Below are positions 2,768 through 41,712 of a DNA stretch of 57,351 bases, one piece after another. Below the pieces are notes generated by a model that ran no database searches, had not been told where the DNA came from, and saw nothing but the letters and a program-made list of their open reading frames with translations. This DNA is from Planctomycetota bacterium (GTDB lineage Bacteria; Planctomycetota; Phycisphaerae; Sedimentisphaerales; Anaerohalosphaeraceae), in the NCBI GenBank assembly GCA_019456225.1, contig VRUI01000026.1:1-57351 (forward strand), read 5' to 3'. How positions within the stretch are numbered: position 1 is the stretch's first letter; each line of letters opens with the position of its first letter. The position numbers were made by a program, and so were the translations under genes.

Positions 2768-3034
2768 TTCACTTCTCCTTAAATAAAAATAATTATTTTA
2801 CTTTTCGATCACCGGTTTTTACATGCTTTTTCGTCTCCTTAAAAAAACAACATTTATCTATCAATCTGCTCTTAGAACAAATACCTGTACCGATAATATT
2901 GCAGGAGTCCTATAAAAGCAATGAAAAAACGGAAGTTTTATTTTTTCATAAATGGGTCCGTTTTTTTAACCGAATAACTGAATGTTTAACCGGACAAGTT
3001 CTGCTAATTATAGCTTTATTTTAGGAGTTTTGTT

Positions 3035-3535
3035 GTGAAAAAAGGGTTTACATTAATCGAAATTCTTATAGTGGTAACGATTCTTGGGATAGTGGCGGCG
3101 ATGGTTATACCTAGTGTTCAGGGTCATGTAGAAAAGGCTCGTACCGCAGCTGCCAAGGAAACGCTGCAATCTTTGCGGCATCAAATTGAACTTTATAAGT
3201 TCGAGCATGAGGATGCGGTTCCCGGTTTCGCCGGCGGAAGCCCGATCTCACCATTAAATACGGTCAGGCAATTTACAAATTGCACGAAAGTAGACGGCAG
3301 CGTATCTCCATTTACCAAAAAGACCGGCGAGTACGTTTGCGGTCCGTATCTTCCTAAGATGGCGAAGAATCCGTTTAACAAGCTTGACACAATAACAATA
3401 GTGCCGGTCGGTACTGATTTTTCGGCTGCCGTCGATGGTACGTCCAGCGGGTGGCTGTATAAGGCCGGTACGTGTGATATACGCCTTAATTCGACAGGGA
3501 CCGATGAACGCGGGGTTAAGCACTACGAGTTATAG
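3035..3535 (+). CDS. Type IV prepilin / type II secretion pseudopilin, tandem copy 1
   Basis: The product is 166 residues and starts with GTG at 3035, with AGGAG 7 bases upstream. The N-terminus KKGFTLIEILIVVTILG is a complete class III signal: a short leader, Gly at -1, Phe at +1 and Glu at +5, followed by a hydrophobic helix that forms the pilus core. The prepilin peptidase should cut after Gly. The segment LRHQIELYKFEH ending in VPG is typical of planctomycete major prepilins. Two Cys in the globular head may form a disulfide. The gene is 60 percent or more alike with the next gene and part of the same tandem duplication. It stands alone, 37 kb from the assembly genes, so it may be an alternative pilin subunit. 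Confidence 0.9.
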   Translation: MKKGFTLIEILIVVTILGIVAAMVIPSVQGHVEKARTAAAKETLQSLRHQIELYKFEHEDAVPGFAGGSPISPLNTVRQFTNCTKVDGSVSPFTKKTGEYVCGPYLPKMAKNPFNKLDTITIVPVGTDFSAAVDGTSSGWLYKAGTCDIRLNSTGTDERGVKHYEL

Positions 3536-3770
3536 ACTGCATGCAAATGGTTGGGGGATTTTGATTTATTTCCGACGTAAAGCCTGGATGTTCCATTTTG
3601 TTTTTGTATTAGGTATCTTTGCACCGATAATATCGCCGGGGTCCTATAAAAGCGGGGTTAGGGGGTTTGGTTTATTTTTTCATAAAAAGGTTTGTTTATA
3701 TCGCCGATACCTGAATGTTCGAGGATTAGATTTTAACGACTGTAGATCCAGTGTTTTTAGGAGATTTTTT

Positions 3771-4271
3771 ATGAAGAAAGGTTTCACACTAATCGAAATT
3801 CTTATCGTGGTGACGATTCTTGGGATAATTGTTACGCTGGCTATGCCTTTGGTTCAGGGTAAGGCTGAAGAAGCTCGCGTCGCATCTGCCAAGGAAATGC
3901 TGCAATCTTTGCGACATCAAATTGAACTTTATAAGCTTCAGCATGACGGCCAGATCCCCGGTTTCGTTGCCGGATCTGCGGTGTCAGGTGCAGTAACACT
4001 TAATCAATTCATAAAATATACGGCAGAAGACGGTACCGTATCGGCTATTGATAAGTCGACCGATGCCGCCCCATACGGCAAGTACTTTTCTAAGATGCCT
4101 AAGAACCCTTTTAACGGACGTTGGAATATTGTAATTGTTCCTAACGGTGTAGATATTTCTGTTGCTGCCGATGGTACGTCCAGCGGTTGGCTGTATAAGA
4201 GAAAGACGGCTGAAATTCGTCTTAACTCGACAGGGACCGATGAACGCGGGGTTAAGCACTACGACTTATAG
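3771..4271 (+). CDS. Type IV prepilin / type II secretion pseudopilin, tandem copy 2
   Basis: The product is 166 residues and starts at ATG 3771, with TTTTAGGAG upstream. The frame is open back to 3435, but the extra upstream sequence lies before a normal prepilin leader, so the later ATG is right. KKGFTLIEILIVVTILGI is an intact class III signal with Gly at -1 and Glu at +5. Both start and stop lie exactly 736 bases after those of copy 1. The N-terminal helix, the SLRHQIELYK segment and the C-terminal TDERGVKHY segment are nearly identical. The middle of the head domain (residues of about 70-130) has diverged and lacks the Cys pair of copy 1. Confidence 0.9.
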   Translation: MKKGFTLIEILIVVTILGIIVTLAMPLVQGKAEEARVASAKEMLQSLRHQIELYKLQHDGQIPGFVAGSAVSGAVTLNQFIKYTAEDGTVSAIDKSTDAAPYGKYFSKMPKNPFNGRWNIVIVPNGVDISVAADGTSSGWLYKRKTAEIRLNSTGTDERGVKHYDL

Positions 4272-4396
4272 ACTGCTTGCAAATGGTTGGGGGGTTTTGA
4301 AGGTGTACAAGGTTAAGAAGTAGAAGCAGCATGTGTACCCACCTTCGTAAGGGCTTGGGTGCGGTAAACAGCATATCTTACCGGATGCGATATTTG

Positions 4397-4438
4397 AATA
4401 TCCAATATCCAACACGGAATATCCAATAACCAATTAGA
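4397..4438 (+). repeat. Heptanucleotide array, AATATCC type
   Basis: Units at exact 7-base spacing: AATATCC, AATATCC, AACACGG, AATATCC, AATAACC, AATTAGA. It is of the same family as the array at 959-1105. Confidence 0.9.
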
Positions 4439-8981: not shown

Positions 8982-9932
8982 ATGCCTTTAGTGGACACGA
9001 AAAAAATGTTTGAGATGGCCTATAAGAACGGCTATGCAATTGGGGCTTTCAATGTTAACAACATGGAAATTACCCAGGGAATCGTTGCAGCGATCGTCGA
9101 GGAAAAAGCTCCGCTTATTCTTCAGGTCTCACGCGGGGCGAGGTCCTATGCATCAATGAATTATCTTAAGGCTATCATCGACTGTGCGGTCGCTGAAAAT
9201 CCGGATATTCCGATTTGCATGCACCTTGATCATGGCGATACATTTGAGTCCTGCAAGCAGTGTGTCGATGACGGTTTTACATCCGTTATGATCGATGCAT
9301 CGCACTCGAGCTTCGAAGATAATATCGCGCTGACGAAGCAGGTTGTAGATTATGCTCACGCTCACGGTGTTGTTGTCGAAGCAGAACTCGGTAAACTCGG
9401 TGGTATCGAAGAAGACGTTGTTGGCGTCTCGGCTGAGGATGTAATGAACCACCTGACCGATCCTGACCAGGTTGTTGAATTTGTTGAAAAGACCGGCTGT
9501 GATTCGCTTGCTATTGCTATCGGAACAAGCCACGGTGCTTATAAATTTAAGACCGCACCAAAACTGGCTATTGACGTAGTGGAAAAGGTTGAAGTCAAAT
9601 TGCCGGGATTTCCGCTTGTTATGCATGGTTCGAGCAGCGTTTTGAAGGAATTTAAGGACCTGATCAACAAGTACGGCGGGGATATGCCTGATGCTATGGG
9701 TGTCCCTGAAGATGCTATCAGCGAGGCGGCTAAGAAGGCTGTCTGCAAGGTTAACATCGATACCGACCTTAGAATGGCTCTTACAGCGAAAATTCGCCAG
9801 GTATTCTGTGAGACCCCAGCTGAATTCGATCCTCGCAAGTATCTTGGACCTGGTCGTCAGGCCATTAAAGACATGGTTAAGCATAAACTTCATGTTCTCG
9901 GATGTGCCGGTAAGGCTGACGAGTGCCTTTAG
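8982..9932 (+). CDS. fba: Class II fructose-bisphosphate aldolase
   Basis: The product is 316 residues and starts at ATG 8982 behind GAGGGAAG. It catalyses the reversible cleavage of fructose 1,6-bisphosphate to dihydroxyacetone phosphate and glyceraldehyde 3-phosphate in glycolysis and gluconeogenesis, in the cytoplasm. The metal site is visible: HLDHGD (residues 81-86) supplies the catalytic Asp83 and zinc ligand His84. GTSHGAYK (about 180) and MHGSSS (about 210) supply further His ligands and the phosphate-binding loop. Length and motif order fit the class IIB group, which includes ketohexose- and tagatose-bisphosphate aldolases, so substrate choice is not absolutely fixed. It is a single gene, followed by a 10-bp perfect hairpin. 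Confidence 0.95.
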   Translation: MPLVDTKKMFEMAYKNGYAIGAFNVNNMEITQGIVAAIVEEKAPLILQVSRGARSYASMNYLKAIIDCAVAENPDIPICMHLDHGDTFESCKQCVDDGFTSVMIDASHSSFEDNIALTKQVVDYAHAHGVVVEAELGKLGGIEEDVVGVSAEDVMNHLTDPDQVVEFVEKTGCDSLAIAIGTSHGAYKFKTAPKLAIDVVEKVEVKLPGFPLVMHGSSSVLKEFKDLINKYGGDMPDAMGVPEDAISEAAKKAVCKVNIDTDLRMALTAKIRQVFCETPAEFDPRKYLGPGRQAIKDMVKHKLHVLGCAGKADECL

Positions 9933-9933
9933 T

Positions 9934-10020
9934 CAAACTGACCTTTGGTCAGTTTGAGATTGATTATTGATTATTTATAATTGATTATTTGAGGATTCGG
10001 CCTTTGGCCGAGGCATTTTA
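9934..10020 (+). repeat. Composite intergenic element (hairpin A, heptad array, hairpin B), copy 1
   Basis: Hairpin A is CAAACTGACC (9934-9943), TTT, GGTCAGTTTG (9947-9956), a perfect 10-bp stem starting one base after the fba stop. The heptads TGATTAT, TGATTAT, TTATAAT, TGATTAT fill 9961-9988. Hairpin B, with CGGCC and GGCCG arms around TTT, lies at 9998-10010 and is followed by AGGCATTTTA. Confidence 0.8.
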
Positions 10021-10033
10021 TTAAAAAAAGACG

Positions 10034-10074
10034 CCACGCAAGCTCTTTAATTGCAGTGGTTTACGTTTTTTTTT
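10034..10074 (+). terminator. Probable rho-independent terminator downstream of fba
   Basis: CCACGCAA (10034-10041) pairs with TTGCAGTGG (10051-10059, one bulged A), followed after a few bases by nine T at 10066-10074. Confidence 0.6.
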
Positions 10075-10418
10075 GGGCGTTTTCGGTCAGTTTGAAAATG
10101 TATAATGTCTATTGTATAATATTTGTAAATTGGCTTTTGGCCGTAACTTTTTTTGGTTTTGAGCGTCTATAATATAGCTGTCCCTGGTTTTTTGGCTGGG
10201 GTAGCTTTATAGGCTTGTGGAATTGGGTTTTTTATATGTTTTTCAGCGGTTTTGTCCCTGCGCTTGCGGTTTGGGCTTTTTTTTGCTTTGTTAAAGTGGA
10301 GAGTTTATTCCGTAAATATTGGTCTTTAAAACGACGATGTAGTGATGTCGGGGATGATTTTTGAAAGTGTTTTTGGTCTATGTTAATACGTTAATGTGTT
10401 TATTTTGAAGAGGTTACC
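10075..10418 (+). other. Spacer upstream of the S41 protease gene
   Basis: No gene is seen. The 17-mer AATGTCTATTGTATAAT (10104-10120) recurs at 18419-18435. TATAAT hexamers occur at 10101, 10115 and 10168, any of which might be a -10. A TCCCTGCGCTTGCGG-type repeat at 10255-10269 is shared with the 4521 and 12999 spacers. Confidence 0.5.
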
Positions 10419-14616: not shown

Positions 14617-14819
14617 TTTATTTATCCGCAGATTGAAAGCTGAAATTTACCATGAAGAACATGAAGGTAAAAGCATGAAGATCATGAAGGAAAAATAAAG
14701 ATAAAAAAGGAAACCGCCTTCGGCGGAAGCTGTTTAATTATCGGGGAGCTTGCGCTCCCGCGATTTTAGGCGTTTTTTTAAAATGGATTGAAACGGATTT
14801 AAGAAATTGGAATTCTTGC
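14617..14819 (+). other. Repeat spacer upstream of the ABC exporter genes
   Basis: It holds four CATGAAG units at 14651-14690 (spaced 9, 14 and 9 bases), a hairpin-B unit CCGCC-TTC-GGCGG at 14714-14726 and a GGGAGCTTGCGCTCCC hairpin at 14744-14759. The same CATGAAG array plus hairpin B occurs at 17613-17703 before the ATPase gene of the same cluster. Confidence 0.75.
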
Positions 14820-16147: not shown

Positions 16148-16236
16148 TTTATAATTTATAATTGATGATTTATAATTAGAGGATTCGCCTTCGGCGAAGC
16201 TGTTTTATCTGTCGGCAGGATGCCGACAGTACGGTT
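16148..16236 (+). repeat. Heptad array plus hairpin B and GTCGGCAGGATGCCGAC hairpin
   Basis: TTTATAA, TTTATAA, TTGATGA, TTTATAA occupy 16148-16175 at exact 7-base spacing. AGAGGATTCGCCTTCGGCGAAGCTGTTTTA (hairpin B type) and a second hairpin GTCGGCAGGATGCCGAC follow, directly upstream of the second permease gene. There is no hairpin A. Confidence 0.85.
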
Positions 16237-17612: not shown

Positions 17613-17703
17613 CATGAAGAGCATGAAGACAAGGGCGTGAAGGGCATGAAGAAAAATAATAAAATTAAAAGATAAAAACTAAAAAGGAAACCGCCTTCGG
17701 CGG
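17613..17703 (+). repeat. CATGAAG array with hairpin B
   Basis: CATGAAG-like units lie at 17613, 17622, 17636 (CGTGAAG) and 17645, then an A-rich stretch, then CCGCC-TTC-GGCGG at 17691-17703. It is nearly the same arrangement as at 14651-14726, so the two spacers of this cluster carry copies of one element. Confidence 0.8.
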
Positions 17704-17726
17704 GGACTATTATATGGAGTTTTATT

Positions 17727-18407
17727 GTGATACTTAAAGGTGTTGATTTACATAAGTCTTATAAGATGGGGCAGACTAAGCTTGAGGTTTTGCGCGGGCT
17801 TGATGTTTCAATTTCCGAAGGTGAGTTTGTCGCTATCGTCGGGGCTTCCGGAAGCGGTAAGAGTACGCTTTTGCATCTGCTCGGTGCGCTGGATAAGCCC
17901 AATCAAGGGCGTGTCGAGTTCCGGGGTAAAGCACTTTCGAGCTTTGGGAGCGGGCAACTTAACGGATTTCGTAATAAAACGGTCGGTTTTGTCTTTCAGT
18001 TCTATCATCTGCTTGACGAATTGAATATTCTGGAGAATACATTGCTTCCTGCGATGGCCGGCAGTAATAGCTTTGGATGGGTTTCCAGGCGAAAAACGGC
18101 GAAAGAAAGTGCAATATTGCTTCTTGAGCGGATGGGTCTTGGTGGGCGACTTAAGCATAAAGCGTACCAGCTTTCGGGCGGTGAGAGGCAGAGGGTGGCT
18201 ATCGCGAGGGCTCTAATTAATGACCCTGAACTACTTTTAGCCGATGAACCGACAGGAAACCTTGACTCTGAGACAGGAAATGGTATCCTAGAGGCGCTCG
18301 AAGAGTTTCATCTGGCCGGGCAGACTATCGTTATGGTGACGCATGACAGCCGGATCGCCGACAGGGCCGACAGGGTAATTCGGTTGGTCGACGGGAAAAT
18401 AGAATGA
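17727..18407 (+). CDS. ABC transporter ATP-binding protein, LolD-like
   Basis: The product is 226 residues with a GTG start at 17727 and GGAG upstream. It has a complete nucleotide-binding domain: Walker [10 protein letters not shown] (39-47), a Q-loop in FVFQFYHLL, the signature LSGGERQR (149-156), Walker [15 protein letters not shown] and the switch His in [17 protein letters not shown] is characteristic of the LolD/MacB/FtsE group. It powers the two permeases encoded just upstream, probably for moving lipoproteins or other lipidated cargo to the outer membrane. Confidence 0.92.
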
Positions 18408-18418
18408 TAAAAATGCCT

Positions 18419-18456
18419 AATGTCTATTGTATAATGGAGGAAACCGCCTTCGGCGG
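18419..18456 (+). repeat. Shared 17-mer and hairpin B
   Basis: AATGTCTATTGTATAAT at 18419-18435 is identical to 10104-10120. CCGCC-TTC-GGCGG at 18444-18456 is the hairpin-B type stem, 30 bases before the aminotransferase start. Confidence 0.8.
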
Positions 18457-18485
18457 ATGCTATTTTATATTTGGGAAGAAAGCTT

Positions 18486-20811: not shown

Positions 20812-20893
20812 CAAACTGACCGGCTGGCCAGTTTGAAATTACTAATTACTAATTACGAATTTAGGACTCGGCCTGACGGCCAAGACAATTTTA
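20812..20893 (+). repeat. Composite intergenic element, copy 2
   Basis: Hairpin A: CAAACTG (20812-20818) pairs with CAGTTTG (20829-20835), with CC/GG inside. Heptads: AATTACT, AATTACT, AATTACG, AATTTAG at 20837-20864. Hairpin B: GGACTCGGCCTGACGGCC at 20865-20882, then AAGACAATTTTA. Confidence 0.85.
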
Positions 20894-33307: not shown

Positions 33308-35698
33308 ATGAGACTTATGGATTTTGTAGATTTAGAGCCTTTTGTTAAGGGCGAAAATGGCGACTCAGAAGGCAGCGAGCGTAAGTTTCGGCTGTCTAAG
33401 GAGATCGGTATCCTTCCGATCCGCAGTGCGGTTGCTTTTCCGGGTACTGTTATGCCGCTGGCTATCGGTCGCGACAGGAGCAAGCGTCTGATCGAGAAAG
33501 TTATTCCGCATGAGACTGTTTTCGGGCTTGTTGCTCAGAAAGACGCTTCTGTTGAAAACCCGAACCCGGACGATCTCTACACGGTTGGGACTGCTGCTTC
33601 GGTTCTTAAAGTTATCAAGATGCCGCAGGGTTCGATAAATGTTATCGTTCATGGTATCGTCAGGTTTAAGATCGATGAGATCGTCGCTACCGAGCCTTAT
33701 ATTCGGGCGAAGGTGACGATGATCAACGGTAAAAAGACGAGGATTACCAAGAAGCTCTCAGCGATGCTGGTCAATGTCCGGCACAATGCTGCGCGGGTTG
33801 TTTCGCTAAGCCCGAATATTCCGGAAGAGGCGTTGGTTCTTCTGGACAATATCCAGGAACCGTCGGCGCTGGTTGATTTTCTTGCGGCGACTCTGAATAT
33901 TCCGGTCGAAGAAAAACAGGCGATACTTGAGGAAACGAATATGACCAGGCGGCTGGAGATGGTTTCGGTTTCGCTTGCCAGTCAGCTTGAAGTGCTTGAG
34001 CTTAGTCATAAATTGCAGGGGCAGGTACGCGACTCTATCGATAAGAGTCAGCGTGAATATTTCCTGCAGGAAGAGTTGAAAGCTATCCAGGCAGAACTCG
34101 GACAGACCGACCGCATTACCGAAGAGATCGAGGAGATGCACACACGCATAATGGATTCCGGGATGCCCGACGATGTCGCGTTTGAGGCTTTCCGTGAACT
34201 TGACCGCATGTCGAAGGTGCCGTCGGCGAGTCCGGAGTATGGCGTTATCAGGACGTACCTGGACTGGATGTGCGAATTGCCGTGGGCCAGTCAGACGAAA
34301 GATATGCTTGATATTATCAAGGCTGAAAAGATACTTAACCGCGATCATTACGGATTGCTGAAAGTTAAGAAGCGGATACTTGAGTTTCTTGCCGTCCGCA
34401 AACTTAACCCAAAGGGCAAAAGCCCGATACTTTGCTTTGTAGGGCCTCCCGGTGTCGGTAAGACTAGTCTGGGTAAATCTATTGCCCGGGCGATGGGCAG
34501 GGAATTTATCAGGATTTCGCTTGGCGGGATTCGCGACGAAGCAGATATTCGCGGTCACCGCAGGACGTATATTGGAGCGCTTCCGGGGCGGATATTGCAG
34601 GAGCTTCGCAAGTGCGGCAGCAGGAACCCGGTGTTTATGCTTGACGAGCTTGACAAGATCGGTCAGGATTTTCGGGGTGATCCGGCGTCGGCGCTGCTTG
34701 AGGTGCTTGACCCGGAGCAGAATAATACGTTTACCGATCACTATCTCGATCAGCCGTTCGATCTTTCCAGCGTGATGTTTATCGGTACGGCGAACTATAC
34801 CGAGCCTATTCCGCCGGCGCTGATGGACAGGATGGAGGTTATCGAACTGCCGGGTTATACGGCCAGGGAAAAGCTGCGTATCGCTAAGAAGTACCTTGTG
34901 CCGCGGCAGCTTATTGAGCATGGGCTTGGGAAAAAAGTTCTGACGATCAAAGACGACGCGATAGATTCGATCATTGAAAGCTATACTCGCGAGGCTGGCG
35001 TGCGTAATCTTGAACGGACCATCGCTTCGGTGTGCAGGCATGTCGCTACTAAGGTCGCCAAGGGCCAGATCAGGCGGGCGACTGTCGGTAAGGGGCAGCT
35101 TTCGAAGATTCTTGGAGCCCATAAATTCGAGTCGGAGCTTGCGCTTCGTACGGCCGTTGCCGGTGTTGCAACCGGGCTTGCATATACGCCTTTTGGCGGC
35201 GATATTCTGTTTATCGAGTCGGTGTCAATGCCGGGTAAAGGAAAGCTTATGATTACCGGCCAGCTTGGCGATGTTATGACTGAAAGTGCACAAGCGGCGT
35301 TTTCGGTTGTTAAGTCCAATGCTGCTAAACTCAAGATCGATTACAAAAAGTTTACCGATTATGATTACCATGTTCATGTTCCGGCAGGCGCTGTTCCTAA
35401 GGACGGGCCAAGTGCGGGGTGTGCAATATTTACGTCGCTTGTCTCGCTGCTGCTTAATAAGCCTATCGACCCGGTGGTGGCTATGACCGGTGAGATTACT
35501 CTTAAAGGGATCGTTTTGCCTATCGGCGGGCTTAAGGAAAAGGTTATCGCGGCGAAACGTGCCGGGATCAAGACGGTGATATTGCCGGCGAGGAATAAGA
35601 AGGATATTTCGGATATTCCGAAAGATGCGCAGACTAGTATGAAGTTTGTGTTTGTTAAAAAGGCCGAAGAAGTGCTGAAGACCGCTTTGCGGTCTTGA
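33308..35698 (+). CDS. lon: ATP-dependent Lon protease
   Basis: The product is 796 residues, the usual length. It degrades misfolded and short-lived regulatory proteins in the cytoplasm. The N-terminal substrate-binding LON domain (about 33-225, ILPIRSAVAFPGTVMPL) is followed by a helical linker. The AAA+ module has Walker A GPPGVGKT (379-386) and a DELDKIG Walker B. The protease domain has catalytic Ser702 in KDGPSAG and Lys745 in GGLKEKVI, the Lon dyad. Start ATG 33308 lies 8 bases into the line after a T-rich stretch, with no strong Shine-Dalgarno. The final codons and stop lie within an 8-bp hairpin of a composite repeat. Confidence 0.97.
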   Translation: MRLMDFVDLEPFVKGENGDSEGSERKFRLSKEIGILPIRSAVAFPGTVMPLAIGRDRSKRLIEKVIPHETVFGLVAQKDASVENPNPDDLYTVGTAASVLKVIKMPQGSINVIVHGIVRFKIDEIVATEPYIRAKVTMINGKKTRITKKLSAMLVNVRHNAARVVSLSPNIPEEALVLLDNIQEPSALVDFLAATLNIPVEEKQAILEETNMTRRLEMVSVSLASQLEVLELSHKLQGQVRDSIDKSQREYFLQEELKAIQAELGQTDRITEEIEEMHTRIMDSGMPDDVAFEAFRELDRMSKVPSASPEYGVIRTYLDWMCELPWASQTKDMLDIIKAEKILNRDHYGLLKVKKRILEFLAVRKLNPKGKSPILCFVGPPGVGKTSLGKSIARAMGREFIRISLGGIRDEADIRGHRRTYIGALPGRILQELRKCGSRNPVFMLDELDKIGQDFRGDPASALLEVLDPEQNNTFTDHYLDQPFDLSSVMFIGTANYTEPIPPALMDRMEVIELPGYTAREKLRIAKKYLVPRQLIEHGLGKKVLTIKDDAIDSIIESYTREAGVRNLERTIASVCRHVATKVAKGQIRRATVGKGQLSKILGAHKFESELALRTAVAGVATGLAYTPFGGDILFIESVSMPGKGKLMITGQLGDVMTESAQAAFSVVKSNAAKLKIDYKKFTDYDYHVHVPAGAVPKDGPSAGCAIFTSLVSLLLNKPIDPVVAMTGEITLKGIVLPIGGLKEKVIAAKRAGIKTVILPARNKKDISDIPKDAQTSMKFVFVKKAEEVLKTALRS

Positions 35699-35755
35699 AT
35701 TATCAATTACGAATTACGAATTTTGGAAACCGCCTTCGGCGGAGACTGTTTTTAG
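35678..35755 (+). repeat. Composite intergenic element, copy 3, overlapping the lon 3' end
   Basis: Hairpin A: AAGACCGC (35678-35685), TTT, GCGGTCTT (35689-35696), covering the last codons and running into the lon stop. Heptads: AATTATC, AATTACG, AATTACG, AATTTTG at 35698-35725. Hairpin B: CCGCC-TTC-GGCGG (35730-35742), then AGACTGTTTTTA. A GGGAGCTTGCGCTCCC hairpin follows at 35760-35775. Confidence 0.85.
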
Positions 35756-36847: not shown

Positions 36848-38236
36848 ATGGGACAATCCGGTAAGAGTTGGGAAAAACGGCTTAGTGGCGAGACTGATGA
36901 ACTTGCGATTGATTTCGTCGAGTCTTTGTCGTATGACAAGCGGCTGTATAAATATGATATCGCAGGGTCGATAGCTCATGCGCAGATGCTTTGCGATCAG
37001 AAGATGATCACCAAGGCCGAGTTTGCCGAGATCAAGAATGGGCTTTTTGAGATTTCCGAAGAGATCGCCTCCGGCAAGTTCAAGTTCGACAAGGCTCAGG
37101 AAGATATCCACATGGCTATCGAGGCGGCGCTTATCAAGAAGATCGGCGACGCCGGAAAAAAGCTGCATACCGGCCGCAGCCGTAACGATCAGGTGGCGAC
37201 CGATGCCCGCCTTTGGATGCGGGATGAGATCGAGCTTTTGCGGACCCGGATCACTCTTTTGCAAAAGGCACTCGTTAAACTCGCCACCAAATATACTAAT
37301 TCCCCGATGCCGGCGTATACGCATCTTCAGCGTGCACAGCCGATCGTTATCGCCGGTTACCTGCTTAGCTTTGTCGAGCAGTTCCAGCGTGATCATATCC
37401 GGCTTGGCAATTGCAGCGATCTGCTCAATGTTTCTCCGCTTGGCAGCGGTGCTGTTGCCGGGTCTACCATTCCGCTTGACCGGGAAAGTACAGCCCGTCA
37501 GCTTGGTTTCAAAGGGATTATGCGTAACAGCATGGACGGTGTTTCGGATCGGGATTTTTGTGCGGAGTTTATTTTTGACTGCTCGCTTATCGCTACGCAT
37601 CTTTCGCGGCTGGCCGAGGATTTCATAATCTATTCGTCCAGCGAGTTTTCGTTCGTTACTATCGACGATAAATACTGCACCTCTTCCAGCATGATGCCGC
37701 AAAAGCGAAACCCCGATATGCTCGAACTGATCCGGGGAAAAACGGGGTCTGTTTATGGATCGCTGGTTGCGATGCTTACGATTCTTAAGGGTACGCCTTC
37801 GACGTATAACCGGGATATGCAGGAAGATAAAATACATGTCTTTAACGCAGCCGATACGGTCAGTGCGTCGGTTGATATGGCGGCGGCTATCGTTTCTAAT
37901 ATGAAGTTCAATACCAAACATATTGCAGCGGGACTTGACGAAGGTTTCCTTGACGCGACGGCTCTTGCCGAATATCTCGTTAAGAAGGGCGTGCCGTTTA
38001 GGGAGGCTCACGGTGTCGTAGGAGGCCTTGTAGCGGGTTGTGAGGATAAGAACTGCAAGCTTGGTGACGTGCCGCTCAAAGAGTTTCAGGCCGCTTGCCG
38101 GGTGATTGAAGATGATGTTTATGATTCGCTTGGTGCGGGCAATGTTACGCGGCAGTATCTTAGTGCCGGTGCGGTCGGGCCCGAACAGGCCGCTGAAGAA
38201 GTTATTTACTGGAAAGAGCAGTTGAAGAAGCGATGA
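36848..38236 (+). CDS. argH: Argininosuccinate lyase
   Basis: The product is 462 residues, the normal length. It splits argininosuccinate into arginine and fumarate, the last step of arginine synthesis. The fumarase/aspartase superfamily signature SSMMPQKRNPD (280-290) carries the mobile-loop catalytic Ser. HTGRSRNDQVATDARLW (about 106-122) and TYTHLQRAQPI-like AYTHLQRAQP (about 157) are the other conserved stretches, with the His general acid/base. The stop overlaps the thiL start by 4 bases (ATGA), so the two are translationally coupled although their pathways are unrelated. Confidence 0.97.
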   Translation: MGQSGKSWEKRLSGETDELAIDFVESLSYDKRLYKYDIAGSIAHAQMLCDQKMITKAEFAEIKNGLFEISEEIASGKFKFDKAQEDIHMAIEAALIKKIGDAGKKLHTGRSRNDQVATDARLWMRDEIELLRTRITLLQKALVKLATKYTNSPMPAYTHLQRAQPIVIAGYLLSFVEQFQRDHIRLGNCSDLLNVSPLGSGAVAGSTIPLDRESTARQLGFKGIMRNSMDGVSDRDFCAEFIFDCSLIATHLSRLAEDFIIYSSSEFSFVTIDDKYCTSSSMMPQKRNPDMLELIRGKTGSVYGSLVAMLTILKGTPSTYNRDMQEDKIHVFNAADTVSASVDMAAAIVSNMKFNTKHIAAGLDEGFLDATALAEYLVKKGVPFREAHGVVGGLVAGCEDKNCKLGDVPLKEFQAACRVIEDDVYDSLGAGNVTRQYLSAGAVGPEQAAEEVIYWKEQLKKR

Positions 38237-39147
38237 ACGACGGCGAAGATAAAATTACATCCTGGTTCGCCGACCAAAGCGATGCACCGGCCGATAAGTT
38301 TCCTATAGGTATCGGCGACGATATGGCACAGGTTACAGCGGATAAAGGGTCCGTGCTGATTACGACGGATATGCTGCTTGACGGAACACATTTCGATCTT
38401 TCCGAGGCCGGTTTCGAGCAGGCCGGTTACAAGGCTATGGCGGCGAGTCTGAGCGATTGTGCGGCGATGGCGACGATTCCCGTTTGTGCGGTCGTTGCCG
38501 TTGCATTGCCCGTTAAGACGCCTCCGGAGGCCCTCATGGACCTTCATAAGGGCATTGTCGCAGCAGGCAGTATGTTCGGGTGTTACCTTGTCGGGGGTGA
38601 TATTACGGCGTGGGCCGGCGATGGCAGATTTGCTATTAATGTTACTATGCTCAGTAAGCCCGGCGGCTGTTTGCCGGTTCGGCGCAGCGGTGCAAAGGTT
38701 GGCGATATTGTTTGCGTCACCGGCACCCTCGGCGGGGCGATCAAGGATAAGCATCTGCATTTTACGCCGCGGGTAGAAGAGGCTTTGCGTATGACAGAGA
38801 TCGTCACGATCAATTCGATGATGGATATATCGGACGGTATCAGCACCGATCTTAAGCGGATATGCGATAAGAGCGGTGTCGGGGTCACGCTGGATGGGCG
38901 GGATGTACCTCTTTCGATGGCTGCGATGGAATCGGATGATCCGTTGGGTGCGGCGATGAATGATGGCGAGGATTTTGAGTTGCTCTTTACGCTGTCACCT
39001 AAAGGGTATGGCAAACTTATCGATGAGTGGGATCTCGCTACGCCGATCAGTAATATTGGTGTTATCAGGAAAGAAACGGGGATCAGTATGGTGATGAAAG
39101 ACGGGTCGGTTGTTGAGGTGGTGCCTAAAGGTTACGATCACCTTTGA
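38233..39147 (+). CDS. thiL: Thiamine-monophosphate kinase
   Basis: The product is 304 residues and overlaps argH by ATGA. It phosphorylates thiamine monophosphate to thiamine diphosphate with ATP. The PurM/ThiL fold shows in IGIGDDMAQV (metal-binding Asp pair), LLDGTHFDL, the SLSDCAAMATIP segment, GGDITAW and MDISDGISTDLKRIC. Length is slightly below the 325 residues of E. coli ThiL. No other thiamine gene is present here. Confidence 0.94.
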   Translation: MNDGEDKITSWFADQSDAPADKFPIGIGDDMAQVTADKGSVLITTDMLLDGTHFDLSEAGFEQAGYKAMAASLSDCAAMATIPVCAVVAVALPVKTPPEALMDLHKGIVAAGSMFGCYLVGGDITAWAGDGRFAINVTMLSKPGGCLPVRRSGAKVGDIVCVTGTLGGAIKDKHLHFTPRVEEALRMTEIVTINSMMDISDGISTDLKRICDKSGVGVTLDGRDVPLSMAAMESDDPLGAAMNDGEDFELLFTLSPKGYGKLIDEWDLATPISNIGVIRKETGISMVMKDGSVVEVVPKGYDHL

Positions 39148-39149
39148 AA

Positions 39150-39204
39150 AATCAATTACGAATTACGAATTGAGGATTCGGCCTGATGGCCGAGGCTGTT
39201 TATT
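39150..39204 (+). repeat. Composite intergenic element, copy without hairpin A, ending at the tsaE start
   Basis: AATTACG, AATTACG, AATTGAG at 39154-39174, then GATTCGGCCTGATGGCCGAGG (hairpin B) and CTGTTTATT directly before the tsaE ATG at 39205. The GAGG at 39192-39195, in the right foot of hairpin B, is the only Shine-Dalgarno-like sequence for tsaE. Confidence 0.85.
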
Positions 39205-39693
39205 ATGGGTACTTGTGAAAATAATTGTTTTGAGGTTGTTACGGGATCGCCTGTCGAGACTATTGCTCTTGGCGTCAAGATCGGCGGAAATCTTGTCGGC
39301 GGGGAGGTTATCGGCCTTGTGGGGAACCTTGGCAGCGGAAAGACTCATCTTATTAAAGGAATCGCCGAAGGGCTTGGCGTTGATCGTGGCGGCGAGGTTA
39401 ACAGCCCTACGTTTGTCCTTGTCAATGAGTATACCGGTCCGGAGGTTCGCCTGGACATTTATCATATAGACGCCTATCGTCTTGATAGTGTCGCAGAGTT
39501 TGAGATGCTTGGGTTTGACGATCTTTGTTACGATCGCTCGGTGGTGCTGATCGAATGGGCCGATAAGATTGAATCTGCCCTTGAAAGCATCGATCCAATA
39601 CGTATTGAGCTTAGCCATATAAGTGAAAATCAACGAAAAATTCGGCTAAAAAATATCACTTCCCAACTATTATCAGCCCTTAAAAGCCAGTAA
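39205..39693 (+). CDS. tsaE: tRNA threonylcarbamoyladenosine biosynthesis ATPase TsaE
   Basis: The product is 162 residues. It is the ATPase partner of TsaB and TsaD in making the t6A base next to the anticodon of tRNAs that read ANN codons. Walker A GNLGSGKTHLIKGIAEGLG lies at about 40-58. NSPTFVLVNEY and LDIYHIDAYRL are the family-specific segments, and VVLIEWADKI is the conserved EW motif. Its start codon sits directly behind a composite repeat that provides the ribosome site. Confidence 0.94.
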   Translation: MGTCENNCFEVVTGSPVETIALGVKIGGNLVGGEVIGLVGNLGSGKTHLIKGIAEGLGVDRGGEVNSPTFVLVNEYTGPEVRLDIYHIDAYRLDSVAEFEMLGFDDLCYDRSVVLIEWADKIESALESIDPIRIELSHISENQRKIRLKNITSQLLSALKSQ

Positions 39694-40699: not shown

Positions 40700-41185
40700 A
40701 TGAGAACTAAAAAATATTTAACATTTTGTATTGGCAGTAAACGAATAAACCGGGCATCGCTTAGAAACGCGGTGACTATCCCCGAGTTTTTTATTGTGTT
40801 TTTGATCTTAGCTATCATTGCCGCGATTTCGGCTCCTAAGTTTAGTGAGGCCAAAAACGGCAGCGATCTTAAAAGGCTGGTCAAAGGCCTGGAGACGGTT
40901 CGTCAGCAGATAGAACTCTACAAAGTACAGCATGAAGGTTTGCTTCCCGGCCAGAAGTTCAAAGGCCAGGAAATCACCGAGGAAGAATTTGTTAATGGTT
41001 TGACAGAGTCTGACGGAGTCTATGGGCCTTATCTGAAAAAGATGCCCAGAAATCCTTTCAATGGTCTAAGATCAGTAAGGATCGGCTCGGTGACAATCGG
41101 GTCGGCAGCGGGAGCCGGATGGTTTCTTAATTGCTATACGGGAGATTTCCGGGCAGATGATCTTGAGTTTCATCGGGCATACTAG
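40700..41185 (+). CDS. Divergent prepilin-like protein with a degenerate cleavage site
   Basis: The product is 161 residues. The family segment VRQQIELYKVQHEGLLPGQ and the GPYLKKMPRNPFNG stretch place it with the prepilins, but the N-terminal signal reads NAVTIPEFFIVFLILAIIAAIS. Ala stands at the -1 place usually held by Gly, Val at +1 instead of Phe, and the leader before it is long (about 24 residues, MRTKKY...RASLRN). Glu at +5 is kept. It may be processed slowly, or be a minor tip or anchor subunit. It could also be a decaying copy. It is separated from the major prepilin by a strong terminator. Confidence 0.8.
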   Translation: MRTKKYLTFCIGSKRINRASLRNAVTIPEFFIVFLILAIIAAISAPKFSEAKNGSDLKRLVKGLETVRQQIELYKVQHEGLLPGQKFKGQEITEEEFVNGLTESDGVYGPYLKKMPRNPFNGLRSVRIGSVTIGSAAGAGWFLNCYTGDFRADDLEFHRAY

Positions 41186-41187
41186 AG

Positions 41188-41277
41188 CAACCTGACCTGT
41201 CGGTCAGGTTGTAATTATTAATTACGAATTACTAATTACGAATTGAGGAAACGGCCTTACGGCCGAGGCTGTTTTTA
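41188..41277 (+). repeat. Composite intergenic element, copy 4, complete, abutting a start codon
   Basis: Hairpin A: CAACCTGACC (41188-41197), TGTC, GGTCAGGTTG (41202-41211). Heptads: AATTATT, AATTACG, AATTACT, AATTACG, AATTGAG at 41213-41247. Hairpin B: CGGCC (41252-41256), TTAC, GGCCG (41261-41265). GAGG at 41264-41267 is the Shine-Dalgarno-like sequence for the ATG at 41278. Confidence 0.9.
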
Positions 41278-41712
41278 ATGAACAGGAACTATCACAATCG
41301 AAAAGGTTTTACTCTTGCTGAGGCTATGATGGCGCTGGTTATACTGGCGGTGTCTGCTGGTGCGGTTGTTTTGCCTTATTCCAGTGGAGCGGCTGTCCTT
41401 GCAGAGGGCTCAAGACGAACCCTTGCCGCAAAACTGGCAGGCGATCTGCTGGATGAGATATCGGTGACAGATTATAGTGATATTATGGATGAATACGGAG
41501 GTTATTCTGAGGCGCAGGGGGAAATATGCGAAGCCAGGTCCTGGGATACGTTCGACAATGAGATCTACAGTAAATTCAGTCGGACTATAGTGTGCCAATA
41601 TCATAATATTGGCAGCGGGAGAAATATAACGCGAATGGGGATCAAGGCGACGGTAACGGTAAGTTACGACGGGCGTGAACTAGTGAAAATCTCGACTCTA
41701 ATAGCGGAATGA
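41278..41712 (+). CDS. Minor pseudopilin, PilV/GspI-like
   Basis: The product is 144 residues. RKGFTLAEAMMALVILAVSAGAVVLP is an intact class III signal with Gly at -1 and Glu at +5. The short length and the position before a GspJ/PilW-like and a GspK/PilX-like gene follow the I-J-K order of type II secretion and minor pilin operons. These minor subunits form the tip complex that starts pilus assembly. The initiation region is supplied by a composite repeat. Confidence 0.8.
   Translation: MNRNYHNRKGFTLAEAMMALVILAVSAGAVVLPYSSGAAVLAEGSRRTLAAKLAGDLLDEISVTDYSDIMDEYGGYSEAQGEICEARSWDTFDNEIYSKFSRTIVCQYHNIGSGRNITRMGIKATVTVSYDGRELVKISTLIAE

Follow-up and report, generated by a model that had tools for sequence, protein, structure and literature searches.

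In the 57,351-nt stretch of planctomycete DNA analysed here (the window), the spacer between the TAG stop of the gene at 40700-41185 and the ATG at 41278 is filled by a composite element, 41188-41277 on the + strand, whose parts follow one another in the order hairpin A, 33 nt of heptads and hairpin B. Hairpin A (41188-41211; CAACCTGACC-TGTC-GGTCAGGTTG) starts 2 nt past the TAG and corresponds to the left terminal-repeat region of a longer element described below. The heptad array, a tandem repeat of period 7 (41212-41244; AATTATT/AATTACG/AATTACT), contains stop codons in all three frames, since a unit of 7 nt is not divisible by 3. Hairpin B (41245-41277; GAGGAAACGGCCTTACGGCCGAGGCTGTTTTTA) has its canonical stem at 41252-41265, and its GAGG foot at 41265-41268 ends 9 nt upstream of the ATG of a pilin-like gene with an N-terminal methylation motif (41278-41712, + strand; Pfam N_methyl). 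A covariance model, R1, built from 14 copies of the element matches 41186-41276 with 92.3 bits, and the copy folds far better than its shuffles (z of -4.1), with the GAGG paired in the minimum-free-energy structure.

A sequence-only reading of the window had reported this three-part order at four places, with part copies at two more, and all six were found again with small corrections. Besides 41188-41277, full copies lie on the + strand at 9934-10020 (R1 score 81.2 bits), directly 3' of the stop codon ending a class II aldolase gene (8982-9932), and at 20812-20893 (90 bits), a short form. The fourth, at 35678-35755 (+ strand, 58.6 bits), has a first hairpin of other sequence (AAGACCGC..GCGGTCTT); it contains the TGA stop of lon (33308-35698) and lies upstream of an lpxL-like gene (35798). 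Both part copies, also on the + strand, lack hairpin A and consist of heptads and hairpin B. One, at 39150-39204 (57.6 bits; fold not much better than its shuffles, z of -1.0), separates an AIRS-domain gene (38233-39147), by inference thiL, from tsaE (39205-39693); the other spans 16148-16207 (45.9 bits), and what had been taken for its remainder, 16210-16236, is a palindrome of a different kind. The ATGs at 41278 and 39205 do follow directly on their copies. The end that the reading ascribed to hairpin B in most copies, GGCCGAGG CTGTTTTTA, is exact among the window copies only at 41188, the genome-wide consensus being about GGCSGAGRCTRTTTTA.

Four hairpin-B units come in addition to that list, all on the + strand: a hairpin-B-like unit near 1198 (1198-1220, repeat family D8), units behind another tandem repeat at 14709-14737 and at 17686-17715 (the latter in repeat family D4), and one at about 18439 within a stretch of AATGTCT/ATTGTAT heptads and hairpin B (18398-18467, 36.5 bits) upstream of an aminotransferase gene. 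Hairpin B occurs also without the composite. Heptad arrays of other sequence are frequent in the window, those at 835-1108 and 4397-4434 (AAACAGC; GAATATCC/AATAGCG/AACAAGG) lying outside any composite. At 3019-4300, neighbouring ORFs are tandemly duplicated at about 80-83% identity, 736 bp apart; one of them resembles the gene at 40700 (31% over 154 aa to the orthologue in G002, a relative of the same family).

Extent of the family and conservation of its hairpins

The sequence-only reading had proposed a model search of the genome and its relatives. R1 gave at least 150 matches in the 4.45-Mb genome, at least 149 of them at E<=2e-4. The hairpin-B pattern, whose foot is GGCTR (reverse complement YAGCC), has 16 exact matches in the same genome, compared with 0 for the reversed pattern. 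In a species-level collection of genomes, a strict form of the pattern occurs in a single record, a MAG of the Phycisphaerae. Across the order, 25 of 118 genomes were positive at E<=1e-4 (24 of 117 relatives and the genome itself), with G002 holding the most copies after the own genome; the family is thus present in several families of one planctomycete order. Rfam gave no matches in the window, nor in seven further loci, six of them copy-bearing.

We used an alignment of 121 distinct R1 matches to examine the two hairpins. Standard pairs make up 97.3% of its pair cells, compared with 88.4% after shuffling, and 11 of the 13 pairs change on both sides in a compensatory manner, with both stems kept. 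Since the alignment was fitted to R1 and such changes are expected of mobile DNA palindromes, this establishes the hairpins rather than a function in RNA. In one copy on another contig (L093, G000:C23:23897-24013), a palindrome of other sequence (CCCGACGTAAAGCCGGGATGTTCC) is inserted within the heptads.

Terminal repeats, target duplications and short forms

A longer element, bounded by 12-bp terminal inverted repeats (CTCAAACTGACC...GGTCAGTTTGAG), has the composite as its left part. The end CTCAAACTGACC, allowing at most 1 mismatch, has 221 matches in the own genome compared with 32 for the reversed pattern. Long copies lie mostly at operon ends and are mostly 137-181 bp in length; beyond hairpin B they carry a right domain, detected at 14 places in the own genome (E<=0.01), and a second copy of the right arm of hairpin A. 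Paired 12-bp ends in the own genome delimit elements of 157, 159, 169, 171 and 653 bp with perfect 7-bp duplications (TAAGTAA, TTGATTT, TTATTTA, TAAATAA and TAACCAA), a further element of 181 bp has the duplication TAATTAA, and one element each in G002 and G019 is also perfectly duplicated. On contig C103 one element is nested in another, each with a separate duplication. A 7/7 duplication is present in 8 of 71 rows for left-right pairs measuring 121-260 bp (both strands counted; 4 elements), compared with 0 of 166 rows for pairs formed by hairpin A only. A scan of all candidates of 120-260 bp gave 7/7 in 6 of 32 rows. Spurious pairs are among the other rows, as are decayed copies; one of the latter is that at 9934, whose right domain and right terminal repeat (10021-10095, + strand) have no target duplication left. 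A Fisher test on 14 hand-picked long forms was not relied on.

The family is short, non-coding, present in many copies and mostly intergenic, as miniature inverted-repeat elements (MITEs) are; its long forms add terminal inverted repeats and target-site duplications, and its short forms, without a right end, have no such repeats. The suggestion of the sequence-only reading that this is a small mobile element is borne out by the repeats and 7-bp duplications, together with the filled and empty orthologous sites described below, and a mobile origin is well supported. Among the loci examined, which cover part of the 221 end sequences, there was no transposase gene with CTCAAACTGACC/GGTCAGTTTGAG ends. 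On contig C149, two ends enclose 2 kb that were considered as a candidate autonomous element; this was set aside on reading the ORFs, which look acyltransferase-like and lipoprotein-like rather than transposase-like. The gene calls beside right ends without left ends showed no evident transposase gene.

Most copies, including that at 41188, are short forms that lack the right end and the duplication and stop at the TTTTA tail of hairpin B. We counted right domains and positions in 105 R1 matches of at least 45 bits, chosen partly by score from the at least 149 copies, 16 weak or palindromic matches of the 121 being left out. The right domain was detected in 16 of these 105: in 0 of 16 copies whose next ATG is no more than 5 nt away, 1 of 19 with it at 11-40 nt, 7 of 37 with it further away, 0 of 6 antisense copies and 8 of 27 others. 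Short forms did not behave as independent insertions with 7-bp duplications of their own, there being no excess of these over shuffled pairs (70 with hairpin A). We infer that they are probably truncations, although their sharp common right end could reflect movement by another route, for example with hairpin B as a REP.

Placement relative to genes and occupancy in relatives

Of the 105 copies, 72 lie between two genes that run in the element's own direction (++), compared with 6 between two genes that both run against it (--); a further 6 are convergent, 5 divergent and 16 have an uncalled neighbour. Among the 86 copies that have a gene of their own direction upstream, 71 start between -31 and +6 from its stop, and in 12 copies its TGA lies inside hairpin A. 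Distances to the next start, taken from a simple purpose-written gene caller and counted over all 76 ++ rows, weak ones included, fall into two groups: the nearest in-frame ATG is at -3 to 5 in 16 called copies, to which we added by hand that at 41188, the gene at 41278 having been missed by the caller, and at 11-28 in 17 copies, with none at 6-10. The 6 reversed copies near a start are 10-27 nt away from it and, where looked at, lie outside the gene's own Shine-Dalgarno (SD)-like site. The gap in start distances fits selection for a working SD, be it the hairpin B foot or a native one. An apparent CTNR target motif at the left end of reversed copies was discarded, being the complement of the neighbouring gene's own SD.

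The sequence-only reading had placed the SD-like site of the following gene in the foot of hairpin B, and the foot does lie in that position in the 16 called copies and at 41188. Use of the foot as an SD is moderately supported. SD-like 4-mers precede only 13 of the 28 genes in the window, compared with 21% of random positions, and SD dependence here is therefore moderate. The forward bias extends to copies whose next gene has retained a native SD downstream of the element, and is therefore not explained by SD supply alone; it is also seen without a start nearby, so something at the 3' end of the upstream gene probably matters too. The reading's further proposal, that stem B could set or switch translation, is conjectural. 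We found no avoidance of SD-pairing TTC feet in ATG-proximal copies, 13 of 16 keeping the TT(C) foot much as other copies do; the pairing shown to be kept is that of the canonical stem, and the family has no fixed set of gene partners.

Comparison with relatives supplies both empty and filled sites. In the spacer between the AIRS-domain gene and tsaE, the element is absent from 13 of 13 readable relatives, in 6 of which the two genes overlap by ATGA. Between nmeth and orf212, G002 has a full copy running from stop to start (TAA|CTCAAAC...CTTATTT|ATG), where the spacer of the own genome measures 7 bp and no element is present in the other 8 relatives read. Between orf161 and nmeth, G002 has a degenerate copy with hairpin B and GAGG directly before the ATG, as at 41278, and with different heptads; the spacer has no element in 8 other relatives. 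Hairpin B before nmeth is thus kept in two genera. Retention of the element at all orthologous loci, which the reading had named as pointing to an old regulatory site, is not seen; yet 6 of the 25 copies in G002 lie in a spacer flanked by an orthologue of a gene beside an own-genome copy, among the own-genome loci compared, and the heptads differ in all six. The family therefore both turns over and persists, and domestication, which the reading had proposed, is possible for the sites shared with this relative.

Origin and role of the composite

The data above establish a mobile family with its ends and duplications, its filled and empty sites and its bias in position and orientation. We consider it probable that the composite belongs to a modular mobile family of MITE type, whose short forms are tolerated between a stop and the next SD or ATG, with the foot of hairpin B available as a ready SD. 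In its full-length form, of about 155-180 bp, the left terminal repeat would fold as hairpin A and be followed by an AT-rich heptad minisatellite, a REP-like hairpin B, the conserved right domain and the right terminal repeat; each insertion would create a 7-bp target duplication, the transposase presumably acting in trans. Short forms, we propose, survive between stop and start because their cost there is low: hairpin A or the heptads would offer the upstream gene a stop codon whatever its frame, and the GAGG foot and AT-rich tail of hairpin B would serve as an SD when an ATG follows at once. If the foot is so used, then many genes in operons (tsaE, the pilin-like gene and others) owe their ribosome-binding site to a mobile element, and selfish DNA rewires translation rather than transcription; the filled and empty sites across the order allow a direct test. 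Going further, the short form may be a portable stop-start adaptor that splits ATGA-coupled gene pairs by an any-frame stop and a hairpin-borne SD, kept at the same junctions across genera as its heptads are rewritten, such that a selfish element becomes a genome-wide set of interchangeable intercistronic ribosome-binding sites; this we hold to be rather unlikely.

In a first rival account, hairpin B might be a REP spread by a Y1 HUH transposase (RAYT), the composite a BIME-like mosaic made via single-stranded DNA and the terminal-repeat MITE a secondary combination. Such an origin is possible, if on balance doubtful: it would account for hairpin B without the composite and for short forms without duplications, and a RAYT-like gene (L200, G000:C8:1895-2344) has two copies of hairpin B within 200 nt upstream and half a copy just downstream. 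Homologues of this gene occur in 27 of 78 genomes of the order, the own genome included, often beside palindromes ending GGCTAA that resemble the GGCTA foot of hairpin B, which suggests that hairpin B began as a REP. However, this link is seen at one locus only, where the protein scores 32 bits against the NCBIfam REP-transposase, below the cut-off of 80; G002 has copies of the element, yet no hairpin B lies downstream of its RAYT fragment, which is truncated at the end of a contig and gave no confirmation of a RAYT as mover; and the foot is not GTAG, CGTC or CnGA, so that hairpin B is not a GTAG- or CGTC-tagged palindrome of REP/BIME type. Elements of IS200/IS605 type have no terminal inverted repeats and make no target duplication, and the long form, which has both, misfits their transposition. 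Three more Y1 transposase genes (L197, L199 and L201) each have a different palindrome of their own on both sides.

A selected role at the 3' end of the upstream gene, with hairpin A as terminator, mRNA stabiliser or RNase site, is of the kind proposed for REP, ERIC and SPRITE repeats. The 71 of 86 copies that start at an upstream stop, even where the next start is distant, and the way in which orientation follows the genes speak for it, but hairpin A has no T-run behind it and that behind hairpin B is offset from its stem, many copies are found within apparent operons, and compact spacers alone would also put copies near stops; we regard such a role as unlikely, if less so than an old cis-regulatory RNA whose stem B would alternately mask and expose the SD. 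The latter could draw on the compensatory changes, the stable fold at 41188 with its GAGG paired, the 6 of 25 G002 copies in common spacers and the hairpin B kept before nmeth in two genera. Against it stand the at least 149 copies beside unrelated genes, many without a start nearby, the weak fold of the tsaE copy and the lack of an Rfam match, and conserved hairpins are also expected of mobile palindromes, leaving it improbable. Chance, or slippage of AT-rich heptads beside unrelated hairpins, has in its favour the heptad arrays of other sequence widespread in the window, but it is already refuted by the order, ends and hairpins, which recur across at least 149 copies and 24 of 117 relatives, and by the duplications.

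Parts of the design favoured here, a MITE-type family with a ready SD, are already known. BOX elements of Streptococcus pneumoniae, described as numbering about 125 per genome and having MITE features (PMC3049150, cited in part), are likewise modular intergenic stem-loops with terminal repeats, target duplication and variable modules; they differ in sequence and phylum, and the present family has a 7-bp minisatellite as its variable module and, at one end, an SD-like foot ahead of the next ATG. BrickBuilt of Porphyromonas gingivalis similarly carries tandem repeats inside a MITE with inverted ends, but in the passages cited these are 23-bp units in 19 copies, at least 49 nt from coding sequences (PMC4596501), in contrast to 7-bp units in at least 149 copies that touch stops and starts. 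Correia/NEMIS, ERIC and RUP are non-coding terminal-repeat elements of less than 200 bp with target duplications, ERIC being co-transcribed between genes with an orientation-dependent effect; their ends are different, and the cited passages describe no SD supply for them (PMC2229807). REP/BIME sequences, in the portions cited, are high-copy extragenic palindromes near 3' ends that sometimes provide a TAG stop, and class 3 Y1 proteins of Planctomycetes are flanked by atypical hairpins (PMC3733652, PMC6006769); the present family differs in its foot and in the terminal repeats and 7-bp duplications of its long form. The TAACTGA heptads of Beggiatoaceae are intergenic, near the start codons of many genes, in genomes where canonical SDs are rare (PMC4679880); the cited part mentions no hairpins, whereas here hairpin B brings an SD-like GAGG. 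A literature search, thin on subscription journals, found no bacterial repeat recognised as providing SDs in the manner of hairpin B. It is the combination of heptad core, 7-bp duplication and SD-bearing end that is new.

Heptads also accompany another kind of locus. ORFs of PF05635 (23S-rRNA intervening-sequence protein) occur in 68 of 78 genomes of the order and are often enclosed by inverted heptad arrays (L202, L204 and L205 in the own genome; L232-L261 across the order), and so enclosed they look like mobile units. Of 34 such loci tried, 31 could be analysed; the scores of 17 exceed that of every one of 172 control windows, and the best period proved to be lag 7 in 18 of the 22 measured. 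As a source of the heptads these S23/IVP ORFs offered a parallel but were set aside, the own-genome S23 loci inspected having no hairpin A or B around the ORF itself. L204 seems to lie between two tRNA-like sequences. In two genera (G012 and G011; L162 and L173) the asl-thiL spacer is filled by a small PF05635 ORF with inverted tandem repeats on its two sides, and in many other relatives these genes overlap by ATGA or GTGA.
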